A stretch of 64,000 nucleotides of DNA, taken from Cristatella mucedo (lineage: Eukaryota > Bryozoa > Phylactolaemata > Cristatellidae). The stretch is taken from positions 752,501 to 816,500 of the forward strand of contig WPIO01000134.1 in assembly GCA_009760855.2 (NCBI GenBank), in the 5' to 3' direction. Positions within the stretch are counted from its first letter, which is position 1; every line of letters starts with the position of its first letter. Under the pieces are notes generated by a model. That model made no database searches and was not told where the DNA came from. It saw only the letters and a list, made by a program, of their open reading frames with translations. Shown piece by piece: positions 28,401-37,400 of this stretch. A program made the translations under genes and the position numbers.

Positions 28401-31400
28401 ATAACTACATCCTGCATTCTGTCTTGTAGGTGTAACATCGGCAGGCTGTGTCTGGGTTGACACAGGTGCAGAGATAGATGCCAATTAGGGGATCGCTGAT
28501 GAAGTCAGGGCTTGGTGTAAATACAGCAGCAAGAGCATCATAGCTCGACACTGGTTTGGCACAATGGTTAAGGTGCTTGCCTCGAACAAAGGCCAAGGTA
28601 AACGTATTCAAGGTCGTGGGCTCGAGCCCCGTGGCACATGTGAAGGGCCTGAATAGAGGGATTAAATTACACACACGGACATAAGAACCGAAATAACGAA
28701 TCTCTCAGTGAAGGGATGAGAAAATTCGAGCAATTCAATTAACATGAAATTTGCAGCATATTGGTCTTGCCAGAACGTTCAATCACGCTTGTGCTCGTGA
28801 GCTCGTAAGCGGTGCAGCCAAGTAAAGCCAGTAGAGCTACGACGTCCTCCACGAGATGAGGGCTGGAAATCGTGGGCGCGTGAAAAATCTTGAATACAAT
28901 TTCCCTCGGTGTCGGCATGGCCACACAACCTTAACCTTCAGAGGCAGCAGCGCCAGCAGTAGAGCAGAACGAGCCAGCACGGCTAGCACGATATGCATCT
29001 TCACGAGTGCCAACTAGTTCTATTACAAAGCGTCTGCACGGACAGCAAAGCATCGGCATGCCGTGTGCTCTGCCGTGTGCACGGCCGGCGCTGGCAGACA
29101 ATGCAGAGCGAGCGCACGAGAGGGCAGCCACGTGCGCTGGAGCTGGCAGGCACGTGGCCTCGGGGGCCGCGAGTGGCGCACCGAGCAGGCATCGAAACGG
29201 TAAGCGGGAGCAGAGAACGTAAACGGCCAAGTATTGCAGTAGGCGAGCCTCATGCAATACGGAGAACTTATTAAACAATAAGAAACTACACAACGACGTA
29301 GCTCTTACCTCTTCCAGTGAAGCTTCCTAAATGAGAGCAACGCAGGCGCCCTTCATCGCAACCCATCGCAGCAGCGGCGGTGGCACACTGGTGCTACCAT
29401 TGCACGCAAGTGCTGCATTCCAGCCAGCCAAGGAAGCACGGGAGGCCAGTGGCCGTAGCAGATATTGCAGCTTCCAACCCCAGAATGGCACGAGTTCCGA
29501 TATCAAACTATGTGCAAGAAGGACGACCGGCACTCGCGGTCCTCAGAGCCAAGTCCGCGCACCCAGAGGCCGGCTTAAAGCACTAGCTGGACCTCTTGAC
29601 AAAGTGCAAACCTGGCAAAAGTGAAAAGTGCAACGACGTGTGAGCGCATCGTTGCACTTTGCACAATGGCAGCCTTTGGTGCACCGATATGATGAGCCAA
29701 TTTTCTGCCGATTCCTTAGGTTTTTATGAGGTCGAAATAGATTTCTGAGAAAGAGTAAATAACACTCCGATGAAACAAACAAGGATGCGGCACAAGACCT
29801 GGTATTCAACTGCACTGAGAGAGAGAGAGAGAGAGAGAGAGAGAGAGAGAGAGAGAGAGAGAGAGAGAGAGAGAGAGAGAGAGAGAGAGAGAGAGAGAGA
29901 GAGAGAGAGAGAGAGAGAGATAGAGAAAGAGAAAGAGAGAGAGAGACAGACAGACAGACACAGACAGAGGGAGAGTTGCACTTACATCGCCAATAAGCTT
30001 GCTCGTAGATCCGATGGCCACGAAACTGTATCGCATTTACACGAGCAGAATCCTATCAGATTCAACGATAATAAAGGACCGGCCAAGCAATGCCCCTGAC
30101 CAGTTGGCAGTTGCAAATTAACATGGTACTACATAAACTATGACGGTACCAACTGTTAACTATGCAAATCTGTTGTGGAGCCATCTAGCACAACTTTTTT
30201 CTGGACCGTACTTTGATTAGTTACCAAACTGTGAACTTACAATCTTAAAACAGCCCTCAGCAAAAAACCTACAGCCACTATCAAGTTTGCAGGTTTCAAT
30301 AACTAATTTAGTTGAGATGAAAAAGATAATGCAGTAAAAGGAAGGTAACCCACACTCGATAAACTACCTTAATCTGGCTGCCTGTGTACTTATTGCAGCC
30401 GGCCAGTCAGTTTTTGCGGCAGGGTTATTGCCAAGCCAGAAATGATAATCGTGACTGATCGGCGACAGGATACGAGTTTGCCTACAGTTTGCTTGTGTAC
30501 AGTACGAGCCCGGTCTACAGCAGGAACAGATGGTTTAGGCAAGCACCGCCCAATGGATCAGGAGACAGTAGCCGTATCGATTGAACGAAAGGCACTCCGT
30601 AAGTCGTAACGGTGTGAATGCAACTCTGGGCCTATAGTGGATCGGAGTACCAGCCGTAACTTCAGCAGAGCCAAGCCGAGACAAAGAGACGCAAGATGAC
30701 TGTTCGCTCGTCCAACGATCGTCTGCCTCGACAGTCGAGAGCGTCACAAGAGCAGCGCTTGCCCATGCCGTGCAGCCACTGCGTCAGCGTTCTCTCAAGA
30801 AAAACAGAGCCCACAACAAAACACACAACCTCCGACCATGCTCAAGGTCAGCTCAAGGGCAGGCAAGGTGTTCAGAAATCTTCCCAAGCTGGCTTGCTCC
30901 CTCGGGCAGCTCGCTCGCTCGGACTTCTCAGCAGTCGGCAGTGTGTGCAATTTACCCTGTGAATACGGGTGAGCGGTCTACGGCGACGTTGTCCGGATTG
31001 AGGTCGGCACCGAAGCTCGGTCCCGAGTAGGAAGCTTCGATCGTCTTCTCTCGAGGCGCCGGCGAGTTCACTTGCGTGAAAAGACTCCACGGCAACGACC
31101 CCGGCGGAAGCGTTGTCGGTAGCGGAGGCGGCGACGTCGCCGCAAACGTTCCCGTCATGCCCGGTGACTGGCTCTTGTCAGTGGCATCCGCAGAGGACAG
31201 CATCGCGTGAGGCGAAGCAGCCGAGGACAGCGCTAAGACGAGCAACACGGTGAGATTTTTTACAGCCAGGGGCGGACCGATGCCGGACCGAGCGCGCGAC
31301 GCGAGAACAGTCGAGCCATGCTTACTCGGAGCCACGTGAGCAGCCACCAACGCCTCTGCATCGCCGGAGCCTATAGGAGCAGGCGTCAGCAGTCCGGCAG

Positions 31401-34400: not shown

Positions 34401-37400
34401 GGTCGCCGATCGGGACGCCGACCTCGCCGCTGCCGTCGGCACCTCTCAGCAGCCCGTCGGCGCCGGCGTAGCACAGGCGGCTGCCGGCGGGGGCACACAC
34501 GGGACAGCCCTCTTTGTTCAGCACCGGTCTGCCGTCGGGCAGTGACACGACGTAGCAAGTGAGGCCGGGCGTTATGAGCACACTGCCCGGCTCGGCCGTC
34601 ACGGGCTTGCCGTCGCCGGAGCACACGGCGCGCCCGTCGGGCGCGGCTACAACAAGCTGTGCTGAGCCACTGCCCTTGACCGCAACCGGCTTGCCATCCT
34701 TGTCCACGAGCAGCTTGTCGCCGAAAGCCGACGACGACGAGGCGCCGCCGGCTGGCACCTTGACGCGGCCGTCCTTGCCGGGTGCGAGCAGCACCGTGCC
34801 CGGCGGAACCACCAGAAGCCTCGTCCGCGTGCCGCCGCTGCCGCCAGCAGGCGGCGGCTCATCGGCCACCGCCAGCAGGCGACCGCTTGGCTCTAGTATG
34901 ATCTTGTGCCCTGACGGCGTCACGCGCACCGGTTGGCCGTCCACGCCGACGACGGGCCGCTGATTGGGGGTCAGCACGGTGCCGTCCGGCGCCAGCGTGT
35001 AGCTGCCGTAGGCGTCCGGCTCCTGACTGAGAACCACGGGCTGCCCGTCACGTCCGAGCACCGGCTGACCATCGGGACCACGGACCAGGCCCTCGGGGGT
35101 CAGCGAATAGGCGATGGCCACTGAAGGCTGACCGTCGGGCGACAGGCCGCTCTCCAGCTCGGTGGCGGCTGCTACAGAGGGCGTGGAGAGCGGCTGCTCT
35201 CTATATAAATCGTACATGGTGATGTCCTGTCCCTTCGGTGGAATGAACAGGCCACCGCCCTTCAGCTGATGCGCTTCCTTTAAAAGAAAATAGTATTCAG
35301 TACTCAGATGCTATAAAACCATTGGATGGATCAGCTATCACGTTTTTCCAAAAAAAGCACCAAAAGGCAAACAAACTAATACCCAAGGCAAGAGAATGCA
35401 TACCAATTTATTAAGCTCGTGGTACTAACGACGTGCTATTACACCGAGTGGGTTTGGTGAGGGTAGAGTAAAACCTCTGCAATGAGTGAAAAAACTCATG
35501 CCTCCCAACCTTGAGTGGAGCAGCATCTTAAACATTGGTGTCATTTACTTATGTTTTAAAGCAGGAATTTTGGCCGTAATAGGGAACAAATTAAAGTTTT
35601 CCCATAGTACCCTATAGCTAATCACGATCAGAGTTAAGAACCCAGTCCAGTAACAGATTACGCTCATAACCCGGAACCCCATTTTATCTGTAAGATTTCC
35701 ATGGCGCCTAGGCAGAATCTCTTCAGGAGCTTGAGCTGACTCATGCCACAGCCACGCCCCTACGCCCTGGAACTTGCCACTCGACAAGATGCTAAGTGTG
35801 TCATCCAGGGCATCAATCGTCATAGCACATATGTGGTGGCGGTGAAGCAAACTGGCAAAGCAATTGCGTCGCGACTGCTCACTACGCAGGCTAGCACCTT
35901 TACAGACTAACATGGCAAGACCGCTCGGTGCAGGGTTACACCAGCCTCAGGCATTAGACAACTGCACTGGACAGGTATGTAGGTAGTGTGGGTATGTAGG
36001 TGTGTGTAGGCAGTCAAATCGGCTGCTCTTCCCTCCTCTTACTTTTCACACTAGCATGCTGGTATGCTATTGACAGCGCATAACTCGTTCCGCGCGAGGT
36101 CAGCACTAGACACTTTGTATCCTCCTTCTTATCAAGGGCCTTGGCAAAGGAACTCAGCAACACGAGCACTGGAGACAATATGCACCAGCCAGATCTCAGC
36201 TCTTGCTCAACGACGATCGACAGCAAAAGCAGCTGCCACCCTGGCAGGGTAAACGAGAACCAATCTTAGTCGATGGAAGCCAGCAGGCAACTGGCCGAAA
36301 CACAATGGGTATTGGTAGATATTAATCTGCTGGCGATTTCTGGGTGCTGGAAGGGATGTGGCAAATATCAGCTGCAACGTGTGCAGCACCTGCTCTCATT
36401 TCTGACAAACCACGGCATACCAATCATCTCTAGATGGCAACACATGTAGGTCAACATCGGCTCTTCTGGGTCTAAGCCTAGGGGTATGGTGCACTCTTTT
36501 CACGATCCAGGTCGTGAGTTCGAGTCCCACAGTGGGCAATTCTTTATTTCCAGCTGCAAAGGGCGGTAACAGCCGTTAGGGCTCTTCTGCCACTATTTGA
36601 ATGAGTCTGTTGAAGCAGCTAACCTTTTTTAATCGAGGCCCAAAGTCATCAGCCAACTACACCGAAACAAAAACAGGAGCCTCCACTGCTTGGCCGGCAC
36701 ACAGTTTTATCAAATTGGTGGTCTAATCAATGAACCATGTGCCCAGATCGTTCAAAAGTTAATACCACGTACCATGGAACAGATGCAGGCTGCCACAGGT
36801 CACAGAGCACGGTGAGCGTAGGGTCACGAGAGCTGCTTAAGCAGCGCCTATGCAGCCGCAGCACATCTATCGATGCCACTCACCTCGCCGGGCGGGACCG
36901 AGTCATCGACTGGTGCTCGCGACCAGTGCGGCGACACCTCGCCTGTACCTCTGCTTCCGACCCAGTATCGCTGCAGAGTGTCACTGACGAAGTCTTCACT
37001 CATGCTGCCCGACAGGACAGAGGTGTCGACGGCGGGCGCCGAAGAAGCACTGGCAGTGGCCACCAGAGGCATCGAGGCGGGCTCCACGACCGGCTCAGCA
37101 ACCTCTACCACCAGGGGCGTGGCTTGAGAGGCAGCAGCACTGTCCACTGCTGTCACCTTCAACAAGGGCAAAAAGCAGAGCAATCCATGAAACGTCATCG
37201 GAAACTGGTGGCTTCAAATCATCACAACCCAACGCCTTCCATCTCTGCCTGCACCACTGGTGCCGGAGCTGTTGGCCAATTTGCAGAGGCCAAACTTTGT
37301 TCATGAGCACGGGCAGTCAGCCGACCACTCGGAGCTTTAGCTACAGTCAGACAAGCAAATGGGAGCTGGGTGGCGTACGTGGCACAGTTGGCTTTTCTCA

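Follow-up and report, generated by a model that had tools for sequence, protein, structure and literature searches.

A predicted DG-repeat domain in the linker between the ankyrin repeats and ZU5 in two ankyrin genes of the bryozoan Cristatella mucedo

Ankyrin gene of the window and predicted splicing of the DG exons

The window analysed here, 64,000 nucleotides of the Cristatella mucedo assembly GCA_009760855.2 (contig WPIO01000134.1, positions 752,501 to 816,500 of the forward strand; window positions are counted from its first letter), carries on its minus strand an ankyrin gene that runs from roughly 63 kb down to roughly 12 kb. Four of its exons, numbered 26 to 29, encode a long array of repeats rich in the dipeptide DG (DG array), which is predicted to be an in-frame insertion within ankyrin, between the solenoid of ANK repeats and the ZU5 domain. 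This placement is well supported because of the splice phases, the loss of frame when the four exons are skipped as a block, and a paralogue whose corresponding position holds homologous exons.

All four exons have AG/GT borders, and joined they give 3,328 nt, read as 1,109 complete codons with no stop. The first-pass annotation of the window had called the exons in 31326..35277 real, with phases 0-1, 1-2, 2-1 and 1-1, and both its coordinates and its phases agree with those found here (Table 1). The frame stays open from the exon of ANK repeat 24 through linker exons A and B, the DG exons and exon 30 into the ZU5 exon; linker exons A to 30 together comprise 1,355 codons, mainly repeats, and A and B have no match in Pfam. 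Omission of exons 26 to 29 as a block, with the junctions as found, breaks the frame and leads to stops, so the DG domain should not be removable as a simple cassette. Frame is kept by 4 of the 31 possible skip subsets of exons 26 to 30, namely 29; 27 and 28; 27, 28 and 29; and 28, 29 and 30. The earlier claim that the array is in frame with the ankyrin core on both sides is thus borne out by the open frame, the frame-breaking block skip and the paralogue, and its border between exons 29 and 30 has a real splice signal, but the short intron there is itself open and in frame.

Searching the end of exon 30 jointly with the ZU5 exons in Pfam gave PF00791 (ZU5) in two stretches with E 1.6e-30. The first ZU5 exon aligns to the end portion of residues 866-986 of ankyrin-1 in PDB 7tw3, which we take to be the human protein, and to ankyrin-2 and ankyrin-3 chains. 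Canonical ankyrins have 24 ANK repeats. In the window, a scan with an ANK consensus gave 22 strong matches (score at least 100) from 62703 to 47571; two further candidate repeats, at 63200 and 60493, were chosen by eye at chance-level scores. A further exon, presumably UPA, matches an exon of the paralogue with E 2.1e-19. The death domain (PF00531) was found at 11 places genome-wide, none of them in the window. Long GA microsatellites lie in introns near the ZU5 exons, at about 25531-25736 and at 29816-29950.

Table 1. Features of the two ankyrin genes; positions without a prefix are those of the window, and C47 denotes the contig of the second gene
Feature	Position	Strand	Phase	Remarks
ANK repeat 24 and linker start exon	47480..47669	-	exit 1	aligned to PDB 7tw3 ankyrin-1 residues 767-823
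Linker exon A (likely)	41248..41468	-	1-0	based on AG/GT sites and phase only
Linker exon B (likely)	40681..40920	-	0-0	based on AG/GT sites and phase only
DG-array exon 26	33753..35277	-	0-1	508 aa
DG-array exon 27	33435..33624	-	1-2	
DG-array exon 28	31993..33269	-	2-1	425 aa
DG-array exon 29	31326..31661	-	1-1	final units, then Ala/Thr/Pro-rich tail
Intron 29/30	31233..31325	-		93 nt, free of in-frame stops; 31 aa more if retained
Exon 30, last linker exon	30956..31232	-	1-2	alignment to ankyrin-1, -2 and -3 chains over the C-terminal end, immediately ahead of ZU5
First ZU5 exon	26969..27211	-	entry 2	PF00791
Giant exon downstream of UPA	12002..16663	-		1,553 aa; separate from the DG array; conventional-looking, Ser/Glu-rich
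Second ankyrin gene	C47:723428-757147			shorter DG array and a long exon of its own
DG exon 26'	C47:723428-724649			homologue of exon 26 residues 110-508
DG exon 27'	C47:725541-725736			homologue of exon 27
DG exon 28'	C47:727786-728426			homologue of exon 28 residues 2-122

Homologous exons in a second ankyrin gene

The genome (572 Mb in 688 contigs) was searched with exon 28 and exon 26 as queries; only the best candidates were scored, so that copies may be missed. Outside the window, convincing matches were found solely on contig C47 (E 7.7e-13, 5.5e-8 and 2.3e-6), where they belong to a second ankyrin gene. This gene has 16 ANK matches that exceed the threshold in the portion examined, an ANK24 exon that matches that of the window with E 6.9e-14 (49% identity over 61 residues), a first ZU5 exon (ZU5a) with 53% identity over 79 residues, and also ZU5-2 and UPA-like exons. 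Across the sampled ANK and ZU5 pieces, the two genes are 53 to 55% identical.

The three DG exons on C47 sit between ANK24 and ZU5 in the same order as in the window. At the sites chosen, exons 27' and 28' begin and end in the phases of exons 27 and 28, and exon 26' has the same AAAG|GT end site as exon 26 together with a candidate acceptor of phase 0 where it starts. Pairwise comparison gave 29% identity over 401 columns for exons 26 and 26' (72.0 bits, E 8.5e-18), 32% over 59 for 27 and 27' (32.7 bits, E 8.9e-8) and 41% over 123 for 28 and 28' (63.9 bits, E 5.7e-16), against a best score of 30.8 bits in 20 shuffled control sets. Exons 26 and 28 each have their own counterpart clearly as top match, whereas for exon 27 the match to 27' is barely ahead of that to exon 26' (32.0 bits, E 5.2e-7). 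Exon 29 matches units of exon 28', at best with E 4.8e-6, and for residues 1-109 of exon 26 no counterpart was found in the paralogue. A profile built from 31 hand-cut units of the window, which by construction recovers all 31 plus one of negative score, gave the paralogue array 59.2 bits; among 200 shuffles, 178 scored at all, with a maximum of 7.1 bits. Since the C47 ankyrin holds homologues of three of the four DG exons at the corresponding position, the domain predates the split of the two genes.

The ratio of nonsynonymous to synonymous divergence (dN/dS, Nei-Gojobori) between the genes was 0.51 for exon 26 and 0.56 for exon 28, compared with 0.13 for ANK22-23 and 0.29 for ZU5a as samples of the core; dS was saturated for exon 27 and for ANK13-14. 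The difference between the nonsynonymous and synonymous proportions, pN minus pS, lay below all 200 codon permutations in each of the six pairs (the three DG exons, ANK22-23, ANK13-14 and ZU5a). By these comparisons, the DG array is protein-coding and constrained, though faster-changing than the ANK and ZU5 samples.

ZU5 occurs at six places in the genome, of which the window and C47:731687 were taken to be ankyrins and the other four were judged by eye to be non-ankyrin. Weaker matches to the array were rejected: those on C684 (three places) and C110 (one) consist of low-complexity repeats of the types VPTGAAVQ and TPSGEPLAL, and the frame of one on C88 contains a stop. Among the best-scoring candidates, DG arrays thus appear to be confined to the ankyrins of the window and C47.

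Around the second gene, a GA array similar to those of the window follows exon 26'. An open frame with presumed reverse-transcriptase motifs (YADDTQLY) lies at 3230-4558 (+) of the window, with a similar frame at C47:707902-708513 in the paralogue locus. Elsewhere in the assembly, the COX1 frame follows the invertebrate mitochondrial code (AGA/AGG as Ser, TGA as Trp, AAA as Lys). Besides a full copy on C688, fragments of COX1 occur on C166, C83, C549 and C299, of which the C83 and C299 ones are interrupted by TAA or TAG; the fragments are likely nuclear copies of mitochondrial DNA. A search for cuticle domains of the arthropod type gave none, in a run that produced no match at all.

Repeat pattern of the DG array

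The array comprises about 31 units. The DG dipeptide was observed 42 times, compared with 10.0 ± 2.8 expected from 20,000 shuffles, and the turn-strand motif [DN]Gx[PAK][VLI] 22 times, compared with 0.8. DGxP was found only 14 times (1.1 expected). The description of the array as DG-x-P-type in the first-pass annotation therefore stands as far as the enrichment of DG turns is concerned, but the P at the fourth position fits only a minority of them.

Hydrophobic residues recur with a period of 8.5 residues, at a Fourier power of 21.2 versus a maximum of 12.5 in 200 shuffles. Their autocorrelation is negative at lag 3 (-0.20) and lag 4 (-0.23), which argues against amphipathic helices. In a charge-hydropathy plot, all 18 windows of the array fell in the folded region. 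The units are diverged, with the motif retained by mixed codons, and Tandem Repeats Finder (TRF) reported on the DNA six short scattered repeats only, the largest of 52 bp. From this scarcity we conclude that the array is old and maintained at the protein level. Gly and Pro together make up 23.6% of its residues, and third codon positions in the DG exons are GC-rich. On the opposite strand, an open frame of 595 aa runs across the DG exons at 31841-33628 (+), probably as a by-product of GC-rich codons.

Family and structure searches

In Pfam, the best E for the DG exons was 0.039 in one search and 0.049 in another, and the paralogue array gave at best Sublancin with E 0.0035, all below the cut-off. 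PHROGs returned no family for three proteins, and none of 224 pattern matches to the repeat in prokaryote genome contigs was confirmed. Against the PDB, phmmer with whole exons gave best E values of 0.69 and 0.095, and profile searches 0.055 and 0.054, with nothing below 0.05. Two matches to gamma-sarcoglycan in the PDB searches (E 0.72 and 0.52) were not significant and were discarded.

Two resemblances had to be considered further. In NCBIfam, the flagellar-rod family NF009332 was matched below threshold by exon 26 (E 3.9e-4) and exon 28 (E 4.8e-4), and a 94-residue stretch of exon 26 (34861-35142, minus strand) matched a FlgF-type family with E 7.9e-7. At 28.9 bits, this best score falls far below the curated cut-off of 178.5, and the assignment of the array as a FlgF rod protein was rejected. 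Two reversed control pieces gave no flagellar-rod match, and the similarity of the 94-residue stretch vanished on reversal. A 130-residue piece of exon 28 reached only E 0.055, the two paralogue exons tested had no flagellar-rod match in NCBIfam, and flagellar families were absent from the Pfam matches and from the PDB matches of the unit profile, with FlgF at E 0.058 for a longer profile. What FlgF and its relatives (TIGR02490, NF009332) have in common with exon 26 is a short run of DG turns.

The same 94 residues matched designed Cake beta-propellers by summed E: 6tjg with 1.6e-6, 6tjf with 5.9e-5, 6tje with 3.7e-4, and a fourth and a fifth design with 0.003 and 0.046. The first three of these were the sole PDB matches below 0.001. 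The three alignments shown give 5.6 to 9.1 bits per copy, and no single stretch passes; the Cake propellers consist of DG-containing beta repeats, as the array does, and their score is a sum over near-identical designed repeats. Both the FlgF and the propeller matches are read as a short DG-turn resemblance. The first-pass annotation had suggested a profile search of the repeat against Pfam and PDB; no family was reached at cut-off, and PDB matches below E 0.05 were confined to the summed propeller matches of the 94-residue piece. The DG repeat appears unrecognised in the libraries searched at curated cut-offs, and the earlier view that it is no named family holds for Pfam and NCBIfam at those cut-offs and for PHROGs.

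For the predicted fold, the most apt analogy is the TCP domain (G-box, Tcp10_C) of CPAP/SAS-4. In the available excerpt of PMC3776556, this domain is described as a free-standing meander in which type I turns, often PDG, connect about 20 antiparallel strands; its strands are short, about 9 residues each by our own arithmetic over residues 937-1124.

Literature searches with strings of the repeat peptide gave, among the matches listed, only unrelated uses of 'DG repeat'. An insertion of this kind between ANK and ZU5 seems not to be in print, as judged largely from titles and abstract openings, which constitute weak evidence of absence.

Comparison with giant ankyrins

Large added coding sequence is likewise known from other bilaterian ankyrins, namely Drosophila Ank2 L/XL, C. 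elegans unc-44 and vertebrate AnkG (PMC5135030). According to the available part of that source, their long exons are found downstream of UPA, on either side of the death domain, have Ser+Glu of about 25% and S, E, T, D, K and P of over 55%, and occur in particular isoforms; in some cases they hold a repeat array that is suggested to act as a spacer. The first-pass annotation had stated that published giant insertions lie after UPA and not before ZU5, which agrees with this part of PMC5135030.

The DG array differs in both position and composition: it lies upstream of ZU5 and is spread over four exons, whereas the known insertions are usually one very long exon after UPA. Ser+Glu amounts to 9.2% in the DG array, 27.4% in the giant exon of the window and 19.4% in the long exon of the paralogue, and S, E, T, D, K and P to 36.3%, 52.4% and 43.1%, respectively. 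The ankyrin gene of the window holds a conventional-looking giant exon besides the DG array. This exon carries repeats including LDSxYEA and QDSxYQADE, has no Pfam match and falls on the disordered side of the charge-hydropathy plot; the paralogue long exon (1,358 residues) is less Ser/Glu-biased and falls, like the DG array, on the folded side.

Proposed fold and function of the DG domain

We assign a probability of about 0.5 to the joint reading that a conserved DG domain in the ANK-ZU5 linker consists of beta-strand units and serves as a spacer or platform. Each unit would be built of short beta strands, about 8.5 residues long and linked by PDG, DG and PxG turns. The whole would most resemble a long free-standing beta meander, as in the CPAP TCP/G-box, with a beta solenoid as the alternative. 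In the simplest reading, the domain would be an obligatory, elongated spacer or docking platform, with the ANK solenoid, which binds membrane partners, held off the spectrin-binding ZU5-UPA module. By arithmetic, at 0.48 nm for each strand or coil, the roughly 1,035 repeat residues would extend over about 19 nm in a solenoid, if a coil of 25.5 residues is assumed, and over at most about 58 nm in a meander. The beta-rich spacer suggested by the first-pass annotation is plausible, with the simple tests for a beta pattern being neutral. It would go considerably further to propose that the repeat is a new family whose units make one continuous beta meander with as many as about 120 strands, that it is obligatory in all ankyrins of this animal lineage and that it keeps membrane partners tens of nm from the spectrin lattice; such a meander, if real, would be far longer than the CPAP G-box with its roughly 20 strands, and we consider this extended version speculative and unlikely.

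Several results weigh against the joint reading. PF07202 (Tcp10_C) scored 7.2 bits against the DG array (E 5.5; cut-off 36), and TCP/G-box was absent among the matches listed in the PDB profile searches. Unit length is continuously variable: the 30 spacings between unit ends range from 26 to 42 residues, with a median of 32 and without two clean classes. The spacing of DG is not significantly quantised at 8.5 (R 0.47; 99% null level 0.48 across every period tried), R having its maximum of 0.52 at a period of 11.75, and V-x-V alternation shows no enrichment (41 observed, 45.4 expected). The charge-hydropathy result is weak evidence, since the paralogue long exon also scores as folded. For exons A, B, 29 and 30, no counterpart was found in the paralogue by tblastn (for exon 30 also by a scan of splice phases), and the array there is diverged, with 11 unit matches of which 7 have an independent E-value (i-E) below 0.001. 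As found, it has 686 aa in three exons and is about 40% shorter; its exact length is thus not conserved, which weakens the role of a precise ruler.

Other explanations account for parts of these data. The array could be an isoform-specific module, included only in some tissues or stages via other splice sites or exons. The few frame-keeping skip subsets of exons 26 to 30 would allow this, and long exons are isoform-bound in giant ankyrins elsewhere (PMC5135030, available part), but a whole-block skip with the junctions found yields stops, and we regard the module as possible though doubtful. Alternatively, the array or its ends might bind back on the ANK groove or recruit partners and so gate the binding of membrane proteins. 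Its position is identical to that of the autoinhibitory linker of ankyrin-B (residues 848-960), which according to the available excerpt of PMC3663501 controls membrane association, is modelled as unstructured and measures about 110 residues in ankyrin-B and ankyrin-G constructs; the fast change of the array relative to the ANK and ZU5 samples would also suit a regulatory module. The linker of the window, with its 1,355 codons of mainly repeats, is nevertheless of another kind, and the ankyrin-B effect needs just three short stretches in one small exon (same excerpt), for which about 1,100 repeat residues would be superfluous; we consider such a regulatory linker unlikely.

Low-complexity or disordered filler, spread by replication slippage and without a defined fold, would agree with the repetitiveness, the Gly+Pro content, the GC-rich third positions and the neutral beta-pattern tests. 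It is, however, hard to reconcile with the lack of a tandem array at the DNA level, with diverged units that keep their motif in mixed codons, with the silent excess between the paralogues and with the folded side of the charge-hydropathy plot, and is judged quite improbable. The chance that the exons represent a separate gene, a pseudogene or an assembly artefact within an ankyrin intron appears to be very small, given continuous phases on either side and homologous exons at the corresponding position of a second ankyrin.

In ankyrin, membrane channels and adhesion proteins are coupled to spectrin through the linker between ANK and ZU5. A large and possibly folded DG domain at this point, kept in two paralogues, would imply that the distance or the control of this coupling can evolve by domain insertion. 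The insertion also provides a natural test of whether the linker acts as a hinge, a switch or a spacer.

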